Shown: positions 29,001 to 37,164, numbered from the stretch's first letter. The stretch is DNA of 37,164 nt from Myxococcales bacterium (GCA_019637115.1 JAHBWH010000073.1:1-37164); one strand, 5' to 3'. The notes: generated by a model not told the origin, from the letters alone. Numbers and translations: made by a program.

Positions 29001-29439
29001 CACGTTCACGCGCTTCGAGCCGGGCGGCATCGTCGAGGGTCACCCGAACATCAAGTTCTCTACGTCGATCATCGACTACGTGTTCCGGGTTCTGGGGGTC
29101 GAGTACCTGAAGCGGTACGACTTCGCGCAGGTGCCGCCGAAGGAAGAGCAGACGGAGCTTCTGAGCTCGACGGATGTGGCGGCGGCGCATCGGGCGCAGG
29201 GGGCGGTGTTGACGGATCCGCCTCCCGCTCTAGCGGCCGCGATCGAGCCGGCGGAGCAGGTGGTGTTTGGGTTTGATGATGCGGCGGAGGGCGTCGGGGG
29301 TCAGGTGTCGGCGTTGGATCAGCAGCTGGGCGAGATGATGGGTGATGCGCCGATGTGTGATAAGTGCGGGCATATCACGGTTCGGAATGGGGCTTGTTAT
29401 AAGTGTTTGAACTGTGGGAACTCGATGGGGTGCTCGTGA
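26068..29439 (+). CDS. nrdJ: Adenosylcobalamin-dependent (class II) ribonucleotide reductase
   Basis: A 1123-residue enzyme that reduces ribonucleotides to deoxyribonucleotides using a cobalamin-generated thiyl radical. The class II features are [11 protein letters not shown], the active-site C204 (QCSACFIQN) and NPCSEYMF with radical and acid residues C413 and E415. They continue with [12 protein letters not shown] and the barrel segment [20 protein letters not shown]. The C-terminus carries CDKCG...[14 protein letters not shown], a zinc-ribbon tail with cysteines that likely re-reduce the active site. GTG 26068 is chosen, with GGAGG 5 bp upstream. The last 250-300 bp switch abruptly to T-ending codons (GAT, TTT, TGT) and the DNA stays different beyond the stop. 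Confidence 0.95.
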
Positions 29440-29460: not shown

Positions 29461-29537
29461 TTGGTGACCTGAACGGATGTGCTCATCCGTTTGGGGGATG
29501 GACAGGAAGGAGGCGACCGGTTTAGTCTGGTCGCCTC
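29461..29537 (+). repeat. Duplicated element T, copy 1 (after nrdJ)
   Basis: Matches 33871-33950 at roughly three quarters of positions by eye. Shared segments include GGATGTGCTC, GGGGAT-R-GACAGG and TAGTCT-R-GTCG. It contains an 8-bp hairpin (29472-29479 with 29484-29491, loop TGCT). In copy 2 the same stem survives through three G-U wobbles. Confidence 0.75.
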
Positions 29538-29540
29538 TTT
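29510..29540 (+). terminator. Intrinsic terminator after nrdJ
   Basis: GAGGCGACC (29510-29518) pairs perfectly with GGTCGCCTC (29529-29537) around a 10-base loop, followed by TTT. It lies 71 bp after the nrdJ stop and is the natural 3' end of that transcript. Confidence 0.8.
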
Positions 29541-29752: not shown

Positions 29753-30557
29753 GCATCCACCGGCAGTCAAAGGCTCGCACTGTCCCCTATTGGTACTAGG
29801 TCGCCCGTGGAGCCGTAGAGATACTCACCCCGGCTCTCAACCGAATGGACTGCAAGATGTCACATCTAAGAATCAAAAGCTTCTCGGTAAGCGGTCTTTT
29901 TGGTCATTTTGATCATAAGATTTCCTTCAACACGGACGAACGAGTGACGATCATCCACGGTCCGAACGGAGTGGGAAAGACAACGATACTAAGCCTTATC
30001 GAGGCGGTATTTAGGCCGCAATCGCAGGCGTGGAGAGAGATTGAGTTTGCCGAGGTAGAGGTAAAGTTCCTTCGCCATGGGACCTTGACGATACATCGTG
30101 CAAAAACCAAACGTGGCGTCGGCGATGAGTTGAGGTACGCCTATACATACGGTGCACGAAAGTCCGCTTGCACTGTTGTCCTCAGATCGCAGCCAGACGT
30201 TATGGTAGCAATGATCGACAGGATGATTCCATGGATCGAACGTCTTGGACAGCGAGCCTGGCGGGACCGCGAAGTTGGGGATGTAGTCGGGGTCGATGAG
30301 ATCATCGACCGATATGGCGACCTATTGCCCGTTCAACACTCTGGAGTTGACACTAAAGCGAGCAAGGTTCCTGCAGAATGGCTGACGAGTCTTGTCGGCG
30401 GAACATCGGTACAGTTTGTTCGAACGCAGCGTCTTCGTATGGAGCTTAGGGCGGAGCGACATCCCAAACGAGGGCCGCGAGTTCGAGAAGAGAAGGAGCA
30501 TGCTGTCGAGCAACTGGCAGAGGACCTCGCTAGAAGAATCAGAGAGAGTTTACGCGA

Positions 30558-30566
30558 GTCGGGTTC
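30558..30566. repeat. Target site duplication, left
   Basis: GTCGGGTTC directly before the left end of the IS element; identical to 32021-32029. Confidence 0.92.
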
Positions 30567-32020
30567 GGGAATGTCCCGCTGTCTGCTGAAACTGAGCGGC
30601 GGCTTGCCCATCATCAAGCGGCATTCTTCTCGTGGTCAAGTTCTCGGCGCGGTGTCTGGTGCTTCTCGTCATGCTTCCGAAGTGCAGCGACGAGAGCCGG
30701 CATATCTCGGTAGCCCTTCAATCTCCGAAAGCCGGCTTCGGCCTCGGCGACTGCGGCCCCAACCCATCGCAAGATCATCGAGCCTCCCCGCCATCGCTTG
30801 ACTCGGCGTGCGAGGTGGCGCGCGTTGCCGTTGAAGTTCTCGATCGGGTTCGTGGTCGCGAACGAGCGCCCGAGGGTCGGCGAGAGGCCGAGGCCCATCA
30901 CGGTGAGCGTCTCGTCGAGTCCTTCGCGCAGCGATGCCGCTGCCCCGGGATGTTTCGACTCGAGGCTCGCCGCGAGGTTCAAGAGCAGCTTCTTGGCGTT
31001 GTCCGGCTTCCGGCTCTTGTACGCCTGACGCATCGCGTTCCGCGCGTGCGTGTGCCGCTCCTTCGGGAGGTGGCCGAGCACGTTGCGCACCTTGTGCACC
31101 TGGCAGCGCTGCACCAGCGCGCGCTTGCCGTAGGCATCACGGATCGCCGAGCGCAGCGCCTTGCTGCCGTCGATCACGAACAAGCGTGTTCGATCGGCGC
31201 GCAAGCCACGGTGCTGGAGGTCGCTCAGCAGCGCCGAGCACGCCGCGCCGTTCTCCGTCGCCCCCTCCCACAGCCCCAGAACGTGCTTGTTTCCCGACGA
31301 ATCGACGCCGAGTGCGACGAGTACGACGTCGTCCTGGAAGTGCAGCCCGTCGATGAATACGCCCACGAGATCGAGCGCTGAGAGATCCCGGCCGAGCCAC
31401 TCGTTCAGCCGCGCCTGCGTGGCCGCCACGAACTTCCGACTCACCGTGCTCTTGCTCGTCGAGCGCTCTCCCTCCGCGAGCTTCGCTGGCAGCGGCTCGA
31501 GCGAGCGCGCGTACTTTCGTGTCGAGACGCCGACGACCATCTGCTCGTATGCGCGATCACTCATCGGGTCCTTGGCCGCGAGCTGCTTCCACGTCTCGAG
31601 CGCGACCTCACCGTCGTGGCCGACGACACGCGGACGACGCACCTGAACCGTGCGACCGCCCAGCGTCAGGCGTCCTGCCGTCGAGCCGCCACGCGTCACC
31701 TGTCGCTCCTTCGAGTGCTTGTAGCGCTCCCCACACAGCTCGGTGCGCTCCTGCTCCAGCATCGACGCGATCGCCTGCATCCCGAGCGTGTGCACCAGCT
31801 CGCGCAGGTCACCGCGCACCAACTCCGCGAGCGGCAACACCAACTGCGCGAGCACGTTCCTGACCAACGACCCCTCGGCCCCTGCGACCGTGACCTCTTC
31901 CCGAGCCTTCGTCTTCCTGGCAGTCTTTCCCATGGCGGTTTCTCCTTTCAACGAACCCCGATCCTCTTCGGGGCGGAGCAAACCGCCACTCAAATTTTCA
32001 GCAGCCCCCGGGACATCCCC
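30567..32020. mobile_element. IS256-family insertion sequence, complete, 1454 bp
   Basis: Ends in imperfect 25-bp inverted repeats: 30567-30591 begins GGGAATGTCCCG and ends CTGCTGAAA; the complement of 31996-32020 begins GGGGATGTCCCG and ends the same. They match at 21 of 25 positions. A 9-bp target duplication (GTCGGGTTC) flanks it. It carries one intact transposase gene on the minus strand, opposite to the disrupted ATPase gene. The perfect duplication suggests a recent insertion. Confidence 0.93.
30614..31933 (-). CDS. IS256-family transposase (Mutator-like DDE)
   Basis: A 439-residue transposase that cuts and rejoins the IS ends. The catalytic residues are visible: D in VGVFIDGLHFQ, D in RLFVIDGSKALR, and E in NPIENFNGNARH, which belongs to the C-terminal Mutator-type block. 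The QRCQVHKVRNVLGHLP segment matches the conserved CxxH motif of the family. ATG 31933 is chosen, with AAAGGAGA upstream; an in-frame start at 31993 would lie near the IS end. The gene looks complete and has the high-GC style of the backbone rather than the island around it. Confidence 0.94.
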   Translation of the reverse strand: MGKTARKTKAREEVTVAGAEGSLVRNVLAQLVLPLAELVRGDLRELVHTLGMQAIASMLEQERTELCGERYKHSKERQVTRGGSTAGRLTLGGRTVQVRRPRVVGHDGEVALETWKQLAAKDPMSDRAYEQMVVGVSTRKYARSLEPLPAKLAEGERSTSKSTVSRKFVAATQARLNEWLGRDLSALDLVGVFIDGLHFQDDVVLVALGVDSSGNKHVLGLWEGATENGAACSALLSDLQHRGLRADRTRLFVIDGSKALRSAIRDAYGKRALVQRCQVHKVRNVLGHLPKERHTHARNAMRQAYKSRKPDNAKKLLLNLAASLESKHPGAAASLREGLDETLTVMGLGLSPTLGRSFATTNPIENFNGNARHLARRVKRWRGGSMILRWVGAAVAEAEAGFRRLKGYRDMPALVAALRKHDEKHQTPRRELDHEKNAA

Positions 32021-32029
32021 GTCGGGTTC
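32021..32029. repeat. Target site duplication, right
   Basis: GTCGGGTTC directly after the right end of the IS element; identical to 30558-30566. Confidence 0.92.
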
Positions 32030-32661
32030 TCTTGCGGCGTCTTTGGACAGGACTTTCCCTCACCGTCTCTTGGCTGGCAGACTACCGCAGGAAGCCACGG
32101 AACGCAGCATTCGCGCGAAGTATCAAGAGCAGCAGGTGCTGCGCGATCGACTCATGTCTGCTGGACTTATGGACGCGGGGGAGCAGGTACCGCTGCCCGG
32201 CACAGCGCTTGGGGAAAGCGAGCGCAAGGTGCTTTGGTACTATCTCAAAGATGTGAGCGAGAAGCTAAGTGTGTACATGAAGCTTCTTGAACGAGTGGAG
32301 CTGTTTAAGAGTATAATCGACGACAAGAGATTCTTGTATAAGCAGATGGAGATTGACAAGGACGCCGGATTTAGGTTCGTGAATAAGAACGGAAAATTCG
32401 TTCCACTTGGATCCCTTTCATCCGGTGAACAGCATGAGGTTGTGCTTACATATGAGCTTCTATTCGGCTCTCAGGATAAGCAGCTTGTGTTGATCGACGA
32501 GCCGGAGCTTTCGCTGCATGTGCTCTGGCAACACAAGTTCTTGGCAGACATGGGTAGGATTGCCAATCTGGCAAATATCGATTTTGTTATCGCGACGCAT
32601 TCTCCGTCGATTGTCGCAGACCGAGACGACTTGATGGTCGAGCTATCGGGTAGAGGTTGCG

Positions 32662-33516
32662 ATGCTTAGTGCGGTCAACGCCGCGCACGTTGCCGTCGAA
32701 GTAAAGATGATGAGGTCCGGGTTTGGTGGCGCCATTCTCGTCGTAGAGGCAGGGGCGGATAAGCGATTTTTTGACCGACTTATCGACGATAAGTGTCGGG
32801 TGCTTTGCGCACATGGGCGAGACAACGTAGTCGAAGCTTTAGAGAATCTTTCCTCGGATGGCGGCTGTCTCGGGTTCATCGACGCAGATTTCGATAGAGT
32901 GAATGGTGAATCTGCACATAGCAATCACAATGTAGTTAGCTCAGACTTTCATGATGTCGAGATGATGATGTTTATGTCTCCAGCGCTGGACAATCTCCTG
33001 AGAGAGTACGGCAGTGAGAATAAAATTGGAAAGATTGGTGGTGTTGATGAAGTCAGAGAACGGGTCTTAGCCGAATCGGCAAAGCTAGCCAAGATGAGGT
33101 ACCTTAGTCTTAAGAACGTCTGGGGACTAAAGTTCAGGGGAATGGACTACAAGAAGTTTACCGATAGGAGGACGCTTGTGGTGAACTGCCGGTCGGCAGC
33201 GGAGTATATCGTTCGGTTTTCGAGTTCCCCTGCGGTTGAACCGGGCGCCCTAGACCATGAATCATCCCGGGTCGATCTGGACTGTCACCTGGCCGACCTT
33301 TGCTGCGGGCATGATGTTACATCAATCCTGGGGATAGGTATTTGTTATCTCTTGGGATCTCAGGCTTCTTCCGTGGGTTGTCACGAAAGCGTTGAGCGGC
33401 TACTCAGGCTGTTGTATGAGAGTTGCTACTTTCCATTGACCGATGCATTTGCGCGTATTCGAGAGTGGGAGGCCTCGAGCGGTCGCGTTGTGCTTCGGCC
33501 GCTTCCCGGAGAGTAG
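32662..33516 (+). CDS. DUF4435 (TOPRIM-like) effector of a PARIS-like pair
   Basis: A 284-residue protein. The N-terminal half shows the DUF4435 pattern: LVVEAGADKRFF with the TOPRIM-type glutamate E29, AHGRDNVVEAL, GFIDADFDR (D74, D76, D78) and HDVEMMMF. In PARIS, the AriB protein of this family is a TOPRIM nuclease held by the ATPase ring and released when an anti-restriction protein is sensed, leading to tRNA cleavage and growth arrest. Here the start ATGCTTAG overlaps the ATPase stop by 8 bases. The reading frame is intact, but its partner is interrupted upstream, and the IS may cut its transcription. Other ATPase/DUF4435 pairs exist, so the PARIS label is by architecture. Confidence 0.82.
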   Translation: MLSAVNAAHVAVEVKMMRSGFGGAILVVEAGADKRFFDRLIDDKCRVLCAHGRDNVVEALENLSSDGGCLGFIDADFDRVNGESAHSNHNVVSSDFHDVEMMMFMSPALDNLLREYGSENKIGKIGGVDEVRERVLAESAKLAKMRYLSLKNVWGLKFRGMDYKKFTDRRTLVVNCRSAAEYIVRFSSSPAVEPGALDHESSRVDLDCHLADLCCGHDVTSILGIGICYLLGSQASSVGCHESVERLLRLLYESCYFPLTDAFARIREWEASSGRVVLRPLPGE

Positions 33517-33537
33517 TCCCTCTTCGGGGCGGGGTCC

Positions 33538-33577
33538 GAGGCTTCTCCCCGGTCGGGTACTGGGTAAAGGGGGAGAA
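33538..33577 (+). repeat. Island repeat, copy A
   Basis: A roughly 40-bp unit whose consensus is GGGGCTTCGCCCC, then CAGTCGGTACTGGG, then TAAAGGGGGA. This copy starts 22 bp after the DUF4435 gene. Its CCCGGT/ACTGGG hairpin needs one G-T wobble. Confidence 0.85.
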
Positions 33578-33599
33578 CTGGAAGGGGGTCGGGGGACTC

Positions 33600-33827
33600 G
33601 GGGCTGCTTGGGGCTGCTTGCGGTTTGGCTATCCCCTTTGGGGCCAGGTCGACGGGCGATTTGGTCGCGACCAACAGAGCTATGCCCAGCTCGGGCTGTG
33701 GCTGTTGCCGTGCCGAGCAGCGCGTCGGGCCCGTGCCTGCGTTCGCTCGGGTGGGTCGCCGCTCCTGTGGGGGCCTGAGGTCGGCTGACTTCGTCGGCGT
33801 CGTGAACGTCGGAGCCTGGAGCGTCGT
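33600..33827 (-). pseudogene. Module 1: decayed antisense 3' gene remnant
   Basis: On the minus strand, the part near 33745-33790 (GGAGCGGCGACCCACCC) matches the C-terminal end of the gene at the right edge. The GCCCAGCTCGGGCTG stretch matches sequence beyond that gene's stop. No intact frame remains with the same ending. It sits between repeat copies A and B. Confidence 0.55.
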
Positions 33828-33864
33828 GGCTTCGCCTCACTCGGTACTGGGTAAGGGAGGAAGG
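33828..33864 (+). repeat. Island repeat, copy B
   Basis: GGCTTCGCCTCACTCGGTAC followed by TGGGTAAGGGAGGAAGG. This is the most diverged of the GGTACTGGGTAA-type copies and closes module 1. Confidence 0.8.
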
Positions 33865-33870
33865 TGCCGA

Positions 33871-33950
33871 TTTGTGACGCGTTACTGAATGGATGTGCTC
33901 GTCTGTTCAGGGGATAGACAGGGAAAGCGGGAGCACTCTAGTCTAGTCGA
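33871..33950 (+). repeat. Duplicated element T, copy 2 (before cargo 2)
   Basis: Counterpart of 29461-29537. The hairpin (33888-33895 with 33900-33907, loop TGCT) has diverged at three positions, each leaving a G-U pair, so the stem is kept in RNA. The second, terminator hairpin of copy 1 is not preserved. It falls in the leader of the gene at 34023. Confidence 0.72.
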
Positions 33951-34022
33951 AGATTCGCGCTGGAGATGGCTGGAAACGAGTTTTCCGATCTTGAGTCGGA
34001 ACAAACGAAGGAGCGTACTTCA

Positions 34023-34967
34023 ATGAAGTCAGTGGTAGATAGTGTGATGAATGGCATGCATGTCACGAGCGTTGTGAGCATTGTGAGCGTTGTGTACTGC
34101 TTGTCCGCGACCGGTGTGGCCTTTGCCCAGCAGTTGGTCGATGGTGAGTTTAGCTTGACTGATGACCAAGATGGCTCCGATCAGCCTGACCCTTCCGGCG
34201 AACATGGTGGCCTGAGTGAGCGCGAAGTCGCGGATCAATCATCGCTGATTCTCACCGCTCAAGTGCTAGAGCAACTTGAGGTTGTCCGTCAGAATGTCCA
34301 GGCCGGGCAGGAGACCATCGAGCGAACTGCGCGCGAGAATCGAGAAACTGCAGAAAGGGCATCGCTTGACTCTGGGCGCTACGTCACCTTCGGACTCGCG
34401 AGCGGACTTCGGATATCGCCGCGTCCAGGGGTCGCATCGGCTGCGATCGATACTCAAACTGTGGTCGGAGAGAATGGTGATGTAACCCGTCGTACGGTTC
34501 GAGTCGACGATGCGTCTGTAGCTGACTTCTCAGCGGCGTTTGTTTTGCTTGTCTATCCTTGGCCGTATCGAGCCGACCCGGGAATGCGCCTGAAGTCCCC
34601 GTGGCGCGGGTTGAGTAGATTGGGTGTTGCTGCGTCGATATCGTTGATATCATTCTCGAGTTCTACGGAGTCCATAGTCGGTAATATTGAGGGTGGATTG
34701 GGTGTTTCCGTTCGCTTGATTGATCAGTTCCACTTTGCTGTTATGGCTGATTATTCTCGTGTGAGGGTGCCAAGGAGCGGCGTTGCCGACATGGGCGACG
34801 TGGGTTTTCGCGAGCCAACCGGAGAGGTGGTGGGTAGCACGTCAGTTTCAGATGATAGATTCTTTCGAACGATAGGGTCGTTCGCTTTGGCATTTAGGTT
34901 TGTATGGGCGTTCTCGGACCTTGGGCGTCCGGCTCCGAGCGACGCTGTCAAGCCCTCTGGAACGTAG
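34023..34967 (+). CDS. Exported protein of unknown function, possible outer-membrane barrel
   Basis: A 314-residue protein. The signal peptide (about residues 1-35) ends AFAQQ. A short acidic stretch (TDDQDGSDQPDPSGEHGG) is followed by a coiled coil (about residues 75-115: LEQLEVVRQNVQAGQETIER). A beta-rich C-terminal region then has alternating hydrophobic strands (FGLASGLRISPRP, LGVAASISLISF, FHFAVMADYSRVRV, FALAFRFVWAF), as in small outer-membrane barrels. ATG 34023 is chosen, with AAGGAG 9 bp upstream; the frame is open from 33966. GC is low compared with the backbone, and repeats lie on both sides. No family recognised. Confidence 0.7.
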   Translation: MKSVVDSVMNGMHVTSVVSIVSVVYCLSATGVAFAQQLVDGEFSLTDDQDGSDQPDPSGEHGGLSEREVADQSSLILTAQVLEQLEVVRQNVQAGQETIERTARENRETAERASLDSGRYVTFGLASGLRISPRPGVASAAIDTQTVVGENGDVTRRTVRVDDASVADFSAAFVLLVYPWPYRADPGMRLKSPWRGLSRLGVAASISLISFSSSTESIVGNIEGGLGVSVRLIDQFHFAVMADYSRVRVPRSGVADMGDVGFREPTGEVVGSTSVSDDRFFRTIGSFALAFRFVWAFSDLGRPAPSDAVKPSGT

Positions 34968-34970
34968 ATT

Positions 34971-35010
34971 CCGGGGCTTCGCCCCAGTCGGTGCTGGGTA
35001 AAGGGGGGAA
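34971..35010 (+). repeat. Island repeat, copy C
   Basis: CCGGGGCTTCGCCCCAGTCG followed by GTGCTGGGTAAAGGGGGGAA, starting 3 bp after the stop of the exported protein. The hairpin CCCAGT/GCTGGG keeps pairing through one wobble. Confidence 0.88.
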
Positions 35011-35250
35011 GATGCGCCCGGCTCGGGCTGTTGCAGTGCCGAGTCGTGAGCGTCGGCATCCGCCGCGGCGTCGACATTGGACATTGGACGCGACGTCGTC
35101 GGGCGCGCTGCGCGGGTCGGTCTTCGCGTGTCTTCGCGTCGACTGACGCGAGCGCGTCGATGTCGACGTCGGCCTTGAGGAGCGTCGCTGGTTCACGCGC
35201 CGCATTGCGCTCCGCGGCTTCTTGCTCGCGAGCTCGCCGCGCCCGCTGTC
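35011..35250 (-). pseudogene. Module 2: second remnant of the right-edge gene
   Basis: The minus-strand translation contains REQEAAERNAARE and, after a gap, ADVDIDALASVDA. The right-edge protein has AREAAERHAARHE and EPEIDAEALASLT in the same order. The rest is diverged, and no stop or start fits an intact gene. It sits exactly between repeat copies C and D. Together with the 733-bp gap 34968-35700 it holds no intact gene. Confidence 0.6.
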
Positions 35251-35290
35251 CCGGGGCTTCGCCCCCAGTCGGTACTGGGTAAAGGGGGAA
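35251..35290 (+). repeat. Island repeat, copy D
   Basis: Nearly identical to copies C and F. A perfect hairpin CCCAGT-CGGT-ACTGGG lies at 35264-35279, preceded by a GGGGC-TTC-GCCCC stem. Confidence 0.88.
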
Positions 35291-35489
35291 GGTAGTACTT
35301 GTTGGAACCAGGTCGCATGACGGTGTCAGAACTCAAGGCTGCTGAGTCGATGTTCCGCGGGTCTGGATGACTCTCAGATCAAGCGGGGCGGGCGCCGGTT
35401 GGATCGGTGCGGCGCAGGAGCGCTGTGTAGCCTCCACAGGACTCCAGAGAGTCGTCGGTTGAGGAGCAGGGAACGTGGAGGCGACGATG

Positions 35490-35574
35490 GGGTCTCGATC
35501 GCGCTCAAGCCTTCGGGACCCGGGTCGAGCTCGTGGGCCCTTGCTCGCCCTTGCTCCGAGCGCGATCCAGACCC
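35490..35574. other. 85-bp inverted-repeat structure upstream of cargo 3
   Basis: GGTCTCGATCGCGCTC (35491-35506) is inverted at 35558-35573 with 15 of 16 matches. The enclosed 51 bp contain a perfect GACCCGGGTC palindrome and GAGCTC and GGGCCC sites. A long, structured RNA or a recombination remnant is possible. Short open frames on both strands here are not convincing genes. Confidence 0.6.
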
Positions 35575-35700
35575 TGTTCCGCTCGGTTTAATGATGGCCT
35601 GCAGGGGTGTTCGAGGTAGACTCATCACGTCCGCCATAAAAACGGTCGGACGTCCTTCTTTTGTCGTTGAGTGACATGATTGTGTAATGGAGCATAGACC

Positions 35701-36165
35701 ATGAAGCTAGACGCAGCCAACCTGAAGCTATTCTTCCCAGAGAGCCGTGCCAGAACTGCGAAGATGGAGTTCGATCCAAGGAGGGCCTTCGAGAAGTATC
35801 TTCGCGAGGCCATGGAGGCGCTGCGGTGGGATGAGGAGCTCTTGCAGTATCTTCGTTCCCACCGTGTACCGTTCGCCTGGAGATCTCGACTAAGAGCGTC
35901 CGCTGGGCAGACGTATGCAGACTGTGTGAACGATATCATTGAATTCGATCAGCTTCGGCAGAATGCGGCGGGGCACGCGGTTGTCCGAATTGTCACTCTC
36001 AAAGAGATTGCTGCTAGACGCGCACGAGTAGCAACGGAGCAGCTAAGGTTGCTACGCGACTCGTCGCCGCCGGTGATCTGCGGTCCGGCGGAGCTTTTTC
36101 ATCTCGCAGCAGTCTTGTCTGCCGTCGTTCAGATTGTCTTATATCTTATGGTTGTTGTGCGATGA
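35701..36165 (+). CDS. Hypothetical protein with C-terminal membrane anchor
   Basis: A 154-residue protein. The first 125 residues are soluble, helical and charged (AFEKYLREAMEALRWDEELL, IVTLKEIAARRARVATEQLR). One membrane helix follows at about 130-152 (LFHLAAVLSAVVQIVLYLMVVV), placing the bulk in the cytoplasm if tail-anchored. ATG 35701, with GGAG about 10 bp upstream. Its TGA overlaps the next start (ATGA at 36162-36165), so the two are coupled. GC is low for the window. No family recognised. Confidence 0.72.
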   Translation: MKLDAANLKLFFPESRARTAKMEFDPRRAFEKYLREAMEALRWDEELLQYLRSHRVPFAWRSRLRASAGQTYADCVNDIIEFDQLRQNAAGHAVVRIVTLKEIAARRARVATEQLRLLRDSSPPVICGPAELFHLAAVLSAVVQIVLYLMVVVR

Positions 36166-36539
36166 TCAAAATTGCGTTGCTGGCGTCGGTGGTGGTTGCG
36201 CTGTTGTGTGTTGCGTATTTGTTTCGCAAAACAAAGTCGCTCGTAAGTGGGACGACGCATGGTTGGCCGAGGTTCTCTTTGTACGCGACGAAGGTCGTGA
36301 TTGCAGTAATGGGGTGTTTGTGCGCGGCTGCAAACGTCGCTGTCGCACTTGTTTCGGGCGATTGCTCGGGGATTGAGGCGATGTTTTCGATGGCTACAGT
36401 TGTCTGCGTTTGTCTGGTTGGTGCTCTCGTGGTCGTGGTTTCGGCGCCAGTGCAGCTTGCTGCGTTGCTTGCCGAAGGTGGCCTCAAGAGTGTGCCCTCC
36501 GCTGACGTTCAGCCCGGATCGAGAGATGACATGCCGTGA
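36162..36539 (+). CDS. Hypothetical small membrane protein
   Basis: A 125-residue protein with three predicted membrane helices (about residues 2-20, 42-65 and 72-100) and a short soluble tail. The first helix may also act as a signal. It contains several cysteines in and near the helices (residues 16, 52, 54 and around 68-83). It is coupled to the preceding gene by a 4-base ATGA overlap, so the two products probably form a membrane complex. No family recognised. Repeat copy E begins 5 bp after the stop. Confidence 0.7.
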   Translation: MIKIALLASVVVALLCVAYLFRKTKSLVSGTTHGWPRFSLYATKVVIAVMGCLCAAANVAVALVSGDCSGIEAMFSMATVVCVCLVGALVVVVSAPVQLAALLAEGGLKSVPSADVQPGSRDDMP

Positions 36540-36544
36540 CGTCC

Positions 36545-36592
36545 CCCGGGGCTTCAGTAGTAGTCGGTACCTGGTACCAGGCGGAAGGGGGC
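36545..36592 (+). repeat. Island repeat, copy E (GGTACC variant)
   Basis: CCGGGGCTTCAGTAGTAGTC, then GGTACCTGGTACCAGGCGG, then AAGGGGG. It shares the GGTACCAGGCGGAAGGGGGC stretch and the following GCCGGCGG block with copy G. It contains the perfect palindrome CCTGGTACCAGG. Confidence 0.8.
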
Positions 36593-36614
36593 AAGCCGGC
36601 GGGCCGCCGGGGGC

Positions 36615-36656
36615 CCGGGGCTTCGCCCCCAGTCGGTACTGGGTAAAGGGGGAGAA
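36615..36656 (+). repeat. Island repeat, copy F
   Basis: Same as copy D through TAAAGGGGGA, then GAAG. The outer CTTCGCCCCC and GGGGGAGAAG segments can pair, giving a long imperfect fold around the CCCAGT/ACTGGG hairpin. The 342-bp gap 36540-36881 is made of copies E, F and G and their spacers. Confidence 0.88.
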
Positions 36657-36702
36657 GTAAAAGGGGGGTGGCGGGCTCGGGGGTGCTCGGGGTTTGACCG
36701 GT

Positions 36703-36737
36703 GTAGCAGTCGGTACCGGGTACCAGGCGGAAGGGGG
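36703..36737 (+). repeat. Island repeat, copy G (GGTACC variant)
   Basis: AGCAGTCGGTACCGGGTACC, then AGGCGGAAGGGGG. The stretch after it (GCCGGCGGACCGCCGGGG) matches the one after copy E. Confidence 0.8.
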
Positions 36738-36881
36738 CAAGCCGGCGGACCGCCGGGGTCGCGGCGGGTCGTCGGAGGGCCTCGAGGGGTAGGGCGGCCC
36801 GCGAATCCGTGGTGACGGACGGAGCGAGGCCCGGCTCAGGCTGGTGCTGGGCCGGGCAGCGCGGCGGGCGCGCGTCTGCGG

Positions 36882-37164
36882 TCAGTCGGGTGGGTCGCCG
36901 CTCCGGCGGCCGCGGTCGGTCGACGAGGGGGCGGCCTCGGCCTCGGCGTGGGTGGTGGGCGATGCGTCGGGCTCGGGGGTCGGCTCGAGATCCTCGGGCT
37001 GGCGTCGGGAGCCGGACATCGGCGTGAGCGACGCGAGCGCTTCGGCGTCGATCTCGGGTTCGAGGGCGAGCGCGTGGTGGGCCGATACCGGCTTGGGGCC
37101 GCGGTGGGTGGTTTCGTGGCGCGCCGCGTGGCGCTCGGCGGCCTCTCGGGCTCGCGCGCTCCGC
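36882..37164 (-). CDS. C-terminal part of an unknown gene running off the right edge (module 3)
   Basis: The minus strand is open from the window edge to TGA at 36882-36884 and gives 93 residues, with G/C-rich third positions like the backbone. It begins RSARAREAAERHAARHE, continues ALEPEIDAEALASLTPMSGS and ends in a low-complexity acidic, proline-rich and then basic tail. The two best-kept segments recur in the module 2 remnant at 35011-35250, which supports it as real coding sequence. The family is not recognised from this tail; a recombinase or transposase would fit the context but is not shown. Confidence 0.6.
   Translation of the reverse strand, partial: RSARAREAAERHAARHETTHRGPKPVSAHHALALEPEIDAEALASLTPMSGSRRQPEDLEPTPEPDASPTTHAEAEAAPSSTDRGRRSGDPPD

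Follow-up and report, generated by a model that had tools for sequence, protein, structure and literature searches.

Low-GC cargo genes alternating with predicted right ends of a multi-copy RAYT-like transposon in a Myxococcales bacterium

The genes of REP-associated tyrosine transposases (RAYTs) are usually single-copy and immobile (PMC8266576), and the repetitive extragenic palindromes (REPs) crowd around tnpA_REP as though they had multiplied at that location (PMC8266576). REP clusters include tandemly repeated units that carry flanking DNA along (PMC3733652). We analyzed a 37,164-nucleotide window from a Myxococcales bacterium (GCA_019637115.1, JAHBWH010000073.1:1-37164), which is the whole of contig C406 in a genome of 8.88 Mb and 434 contigs, where low-GC cargo genes alternate with a repeated module. 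From sequence comparison this module consists of the 3' end of a multi-copy RAYT-type transposon together with its right-end hairpin. We propose, as the probable origin of the locus, that copies of this HUH/Y1 single-strand-DNA element repeatedly inserted, and decayed, at right ends that adjoin acquired conflict genes. Set against the usual single-copy RAYT, several copies in this genome are 90-95% identical and many lie at contig ends.

A complete copy of the gene on contig C135 encodes a 477-residue protein, and the corresponding part of the window (36705-37164) shares 95% DNA identity with it over 460 bp. Searches with the C135 protein recovered 17 places in the genome, many of them at contig ends, where an assembly broken by near-identical copies would be expected to leave them; homologs occur in 54 of the 116 genomes of the order. 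An alignment of 22 homologs revealed an invariant HxH motif and one invariant tyrosine (H66, H68 and Y131). The NCBIfam model REP_Tyr_transpos (NF047646) is matched by 15 of these 22 sequences (best 2.7e-19); the C135 protein itself falls below its threshold, and its 90% identical copy on C423 matches at 5.4e-4. Weak matches to Pfam Y1_Tnp were found in three of the 22 (best 0.001), none of them from this genome, and the sole PDB match is TnpA_REP (4er8, E 0.03). Based on the retention of the HxH and tyrosine residues, the REP_Tyr_transpos matches and TnpA_REP as the only solved relative, we assign the gene to the RAYT-like HUH transposases, with a long tail ending DPP[DAER] and a DNA-cutting activity predicted from its family. 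A preliminary description had noted antisense remnants of one gene end at 33600, 35011 and 36882, and all three are indeed the 3' end of this RAYT gene, each of the first two matching C135 better than 300 of 300 shuffles. When these two remnants were compared with each other, 16 of 300 shuffles scored as well, and each remnant spans a different portion of the gene end; they are not copies of each other and therefore decayed independently. The same shuffle test led us to reject the idea that modules 1 and 2 were copied from a single deletion product.

As the match between the window and C135 stops just past the palindrome, the repeat is the right-end palindrome of the element together with site-specific flank. 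Past the RAYT stop codon there is a common untranslated region (UTR), followed by the palindrome GGTACC(C/T)GGTACC or a decayed form of it. The palindrome GGTACCNGGTACC is present at the element's 3' side only, and the left end has different GC-rich hairpins, common to C135, C422, C18 and C423, so that the element appears to have two dissimilar ends and not to be a gene flanked by two inverted REPs. Five repeats of 40-47 bp, 62-94% identical to the reference copy of a 47-bp family, begin in the window at 33528, 33815, 34962, 35243 and 36607 (units 1 to 5), and at 36557 and 36703 lie two variants of the right end, related to these, that show 88% identity over 69 bp. Relative to unit 5, unit 4 is identical, unit 3 is 90%, unit 1 is 85% and unit 2 is 80% identical; hence the least diverged units adjoin the transposase and more diverged ones lie outward, in a gradient of five short units that is not strictly monotonic. 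At up to 3 mismatches a 24-base repeat core is confined to contig C406 in the whole genome. A shorter core, TCGGTACYGGGTA, has 16 exact copies in 8.9 Mb as against 1 for the reversed control, and these lie mostly directly past copies of the gene end. The GTAG-TC-palindrome form of the foot occurs at C135, C122, C198 and window position 36557, with other feet at C409, C125, C391 and C387, and the outer GGGGCTTCGCCCC hairpin is confined to this window within the 565 kb examined.

Direct repeats of the right end with its flank, 19-38 bp long, were found at 5 of 7 sites in the genome, with 9% of control windows reaching 18 bp. At C125, C135, C409 and C391 it is the right end with its own local flank, differing from that of the window, which is directly repeated, and in the sister species two copies have comparable repeats of 20-23 bp. 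By predicted fold energy the 47-base units do not outperform shuffles; a strong single-strand fold of these units is rejected on this count, and the label "hairpin" therefore rests on the palindrome itself. We also rejected a known RNA family, there being no Rfam match of note, and a link to a phage or virus, as the exact core is absent from viral contigs.

To the right of nrdJ, which ends at 29439, the cargo genes follow one another on the plus strand as the PARIS pair, an orphan exported protein and a small hydrophobic pair. The preliminary description of low-GC cargo alternating with a repeat and an antisense gene-end remnant holds for the window, which has five repeats and two remnants, with a third gene-end copy running off the contig; the block had been started at 33538, which is too far right, as the PARIS genes open it at 29845. 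The low GC content of the cargo was likewise borne out, at 0.52-0.56 in the 1 kb adjoining the units against a genome mean of 0.70. The features, with strand, are as follows:

29845..32669, plus strand: cargo 1a, AriA-like ATPase of PARIS, split by an IS256-family insertion; AAA domains flank the insertion, and both halves have PADLOC AriA/PtuA-type ATPase matches
30566..32021, minus strand: IS256-family insertion within AriA, with 26-bp inverted repeats at its ends; transposase at 30614-31993 (NF033543, E 1.9e-70)
32662..33516, plus strand: cargo 1b, AriB, the DUF4435/TOPRIM effector of PARIS (PF14491, E 1.5e-8; PADLOC AriB, E 8.9e-14)
33528..33574, plus strand: right end with outer hairpin, unit 1 of the 47-bp repeat family, 12 bp past the AriB stop
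33575..33814, minus strand: remnant 1, a decayed RAYT 3' tail with stop region and UTR, 74% identical to the C135 3' end over 129 bp (better than 300/300 shuffles)
33815..33861, plus strand: right end with hairpin, unit 2 of the 47-bp family, with the TCGGTACTGGGTA core
33885..33949, plus strand: structured repeat of 66 bp, with 77% similarity to 29469-29533, which lies downstream of nrdJ
33966..34967, plus strand: cargo 2, an exported protein with a signal peptide by inspection, matching no family
34962..35008, plus strand: right end with hairpin, unit 3 of the 47-bp family, beginning at the cargo 2 stop
35009..35242, minus strand: remnant 2, a RAYT 3' coding end with most of the UTR deleted (better than 300/300 shuffles against C135; also matches C409 and C125)
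35243..35289, plus strand: right end with hairpin, unit 4 of the 47-bp family, 40 bp identical to unit 5
35349..35574, strand unassigned: element resembling a miniature inverted-repeat transposable element (MITE), with ends GGGTCTGGAT...ATCCAGACCC, from comparison with the insertion sequence (IS) on C390
35701..36165, plus strand: cargo 3a, a small protein with a hydrophobic C-terminus by inspection, matching no family
36162..36539, plus strand: cargo 3b, a small membrane protein by inspection, overlapping 3a by 4 bp
36557..36618, minus strand: extra right-end copy (the element's last 60 bp) within the hairpin past cargo 3, 97% identical to the C135 locus (L045:10368-10427)
36607..36653, plus strand: right end with hairpin, unit 5 of the 47-bp family
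36703..36881, minus strand: 3' UTR and right end of the intact RAYT element with the GGTACCCGGTACC palindrome, 95% identical to C135, the alignment ending at the element end
36882..37164, minus strand: 3' end of the open RAYT gene, running off the contig and ending ...GDPPD, 90% identical in amino acids to residues 385-477 of the 477-residue C135 protein

The adjacent AriA ATPase and AriB DUF4435 genes of cargo 1 constitute a PARIS anti-phage system. They have the ATPase and the DUF4435 protein in common with PARIS, and differ in that AriA is broken by the IS256-family element (30566-32021), because of which the system is probably inactive here. For cargo 2, a search of the order's other 115 genomes returned no homolog, and its arrival is therefore untraceable. 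None of the cargo proteins in the window matched an immunity family, and there is no RHS gene on contig C406. A full IS with the same ends as the MITE-like element at 35349-35574 is present on C390, with another deleted copy on C6; the element in the window is apparently a deleted form of the C390 IS. Separately, a structured repeat of 66-78 bp lies at 29463-29540, directly after nrdJ, and at 33879-33956, before cargo 2, so that its two copies bracket the PARIS genes and module 1. The first copy has a fold z of -6.9 and the first stem is preserved via compensating changes; it belongs to no Rfam family, and no third copy was found in 668 kb of loci searched.

We then examined the neighborhoods of the element's ends across this genome. 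DNA of less than 0.60 GC adjoins 5 of the 12 measured right ends (C406, C122, C391, C387 and C86) as against 2% of background windows, a rough figure drawn from overlapping windows over 237 kb, and none of 8 left-end flanks is low in GC. Besides PARIS on C406, the low-GC neighbors comprise an RHS gene with Imm8 (1.3e-12) on C122; on C387, a Peptidase_M91-tipped RHS gene and, in the immunity position, a small gene; on C391, a TIR protein of the CAP12 type within an island rich in transposons; and, on C86, an Imm1 gene (E 2.8e-6) flanked by two right ends that share 98% identity over 41 bp, with a further RAYT gene fragment after them. This last arrangement repeats the alternation of the window, its cargo being an immunity gene. 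RHS loci were counted independently of the right ends using TIGR03696 as the marker, PF03527 being too narrow; three of the four in this genome (C122, C387 and C357) run from the tip through an immunity gene to a convergent RAYT tail within 2 kb. The chance of such adjacency is ~4e-9 on a uniform-placement estimate with ~12 right ends, and three RAYT subfamilies are involved. The stop codon of the acquired gene usually faces the right end. Thus, right ends in this genome abut acquired conflict genes (PARIS, RHS toxin-immunity genes, Imm1 and a TIR effector) far above chance.

At the C391 locus (L049, 8860-9340), a 2-oxoacid dehydrogenase E1-beta gene ends abruptly at a remnant of a RAYT tail, after which come three right ends, the TIR effector and the transposon-rich island; the 18 kb examined did not include the N-terminal part of the E1-beta gene. 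Some intact left ends have older RAYT fragments or right ends 100-300 bp upstream of them (L045 8417-8660, L053 9089-9119 and L121 5614), which suggests repeated insertion at the same spots.

The preliminary description had asked whether the modules always border variable cargo, especially next to nrdJ. An association with variable genes above chance stands for this genome, and in related genomes the link is weak. Among 16 copies in relatives, mean GC is 0.69 upstream and 0.68 downstream; this flat profile, with no low-GC cargo seen at right ends, rejects such cargo as a general feature of the relatives, and none was seen at the right ends of the sister species. The nrdJ gene does not recur as a site for the module, and we rejected it as a conserved insertion site, since the nrdJ flanks examined from relatives are free of RAYT genes. 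Two RHS cases in other genomes were found from the RAYT side, G008 C212 and G063 C3, the latter with the genes on the same strand. In the former (L155, 3-4740) an antisense RAYT lies between an RHS tip with an immunity-like gene and a second RHS fragment.

Taken together, we favor an account in which the 3' ends of acquired genes, along with earlier right ends of the transposon itself, are the sites that the transposon prefers or where it persists best. One insertion after another beside an older right end would be followed by 5' truncation and decay, and the right end with its flank would multiply locally, as known for REP clusters. The intervening genes would then be accessory genes accumulated in a permissive spot, possibly aided by recombination between the repeated right ends, and RAYT tails may mark how conflict genes line up one after another. 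RAYTs are widespread, and a multi-copy RAYT that caps three of four RHS loci and whose right ends alternate with immunity and defence genes links the question of the role of RAYTs to that of how orphan immunity and defence genes come to stand in files. Several observations weigh against this account. The outer hairpin of the window was not seen at element ends elsewhere; being limited to the window, it makes simple independent insertions insufficient, and local copying must be added. Seven of the 12 right ends lie in ordinary high-GC DNA; among 11 relatives, a convergent RAYT occurs in only 1 of the 42 RHS loci with enough sequence (G016 C126); and no empty site for the island was found. Moreover, preference, recombination and survival bias are indistinguishable from one draft genome.

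The resemblance to a cassette array drawn in the preliminary description is real insofar as the module does stand between unrelated low-GC genes, but a capture mechanism of its own is not supported: the module is the right end of a RAYT element. Inspection of the five units confirmed the absence of integron GTTRRRY cores, and an integron-type cassette is rejected because attC cores (GTTRRRY/RYYYAAC) are lacking and both the enzyme and the repeats are of another kind. Active capture by a different enzyme would entail a RAYT-type HUH transposase cutting right-end palindromes and successively adding single-stranded toxin-immunity or anti-phage gene units alongside its right end, with a new palindrome closing off each unit. 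We regard this as very unlikely, even though all units share one orientation, cargo stop codons fall within ~12 bp of the hairpin and right end, right-end units flank cargo on both sides here and at C86, unit similarity drops with distance from the transposase (a gradient subject to the caveat given above), and accessory genes are confined to the right-end side: roughly half of the right ends lack cargo, as do those of the sister species with respect to low-GC genes, no unit was found in two places or in another genome, and the modules hold decayed gene ends and not clean sites.

That a decaying, non-essential island merely collected IS256, MITEs and RAYT elements, its alternation arising without a mechanism, is likewise highly improbable to us; the IS256 and MITE insertions and the roughly half of right ends that lie elsewhere would fit, but the RHS association across three RAYT subfamilies and the recurrence of the alternation at C86 would not. 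Somewhat different is the possibility, which we consider unlikely, that incoming toxin-immunity or defence units recombine in via the repeated right end (at RHS loci, via the RHS core too), which would serve as short homology, and that older immunity genes remain as orphans still followed by their own right ends. Orphan-immunity files of the type VI secretion system (T6SS) in V. cholerae are known to arise by such sequential displacement (PMC5361080), and the order of RHS tip, immunity gene and RAYT at C122, C387 and C357 and the orphan Imm1 between right ends at C86 are compatible with it. However, C406 has no RHS gene and its cargo no immunity family, and the two identical units adjoin the transposase with the most diverged farthest away, the reverse of insertion at the distal, toxin side.

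Compared with the described systems, the element shares with RAYT/TnpA_REP and the REPtrons (TnpA_Y1 class 2) the HUH and tyrosine core, a right-end palindrome with tandem flank-carrying copies, and a site past gene ends. It differs from them in its multi-copy, near-identical genes, a REP-like palindrome that is 3' only, ~16 palindromes in the genome in place of hundreds (the dispersed REPs of that class number more than 100 per genome), and a protein of about 420-530 residues with a long C-terminal tail ending DPP[DAER]. Like IS200/IS605, it has dispersed near-identical copies and fragments and subterminal hairpins at the left and right ends, but its profile is closer to RAYT than to Y1_Tnp (15/22 against 3/22), it has the long C-terminal tail, and no tnpB was noticed. 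A long C-terminal domain on a RAYT-related Y1 transposase is also found in TIRYT (TnpA_Y1 subclass 2.1), whose described GGGGWSAS inverted repeats differ, by inspection, from the ends seen here. Integron arrays resemble the locus in single orientation, a recombinase gene at one end and a hairpin repeat after each gene; here, in contrast, the units are without the attC core pair, the enzyme is an HUH transposase and the repeats carry decayed gene ends. Finally, as in the orphan immunity files of V. cholerae T6SS and of RHS and contact-dependent inhibition (CDI) systems, immunity genes lie past the toxin gene at C86, C122, C357 and C387; the cargo belongs to immunity families at C86 (Imm1) and C122 (Imm8), though not in the window. 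Whereas the described files are explained by homology-assisted recombination without a dedicated repeat, each gene here is bounded by a transposon right end.

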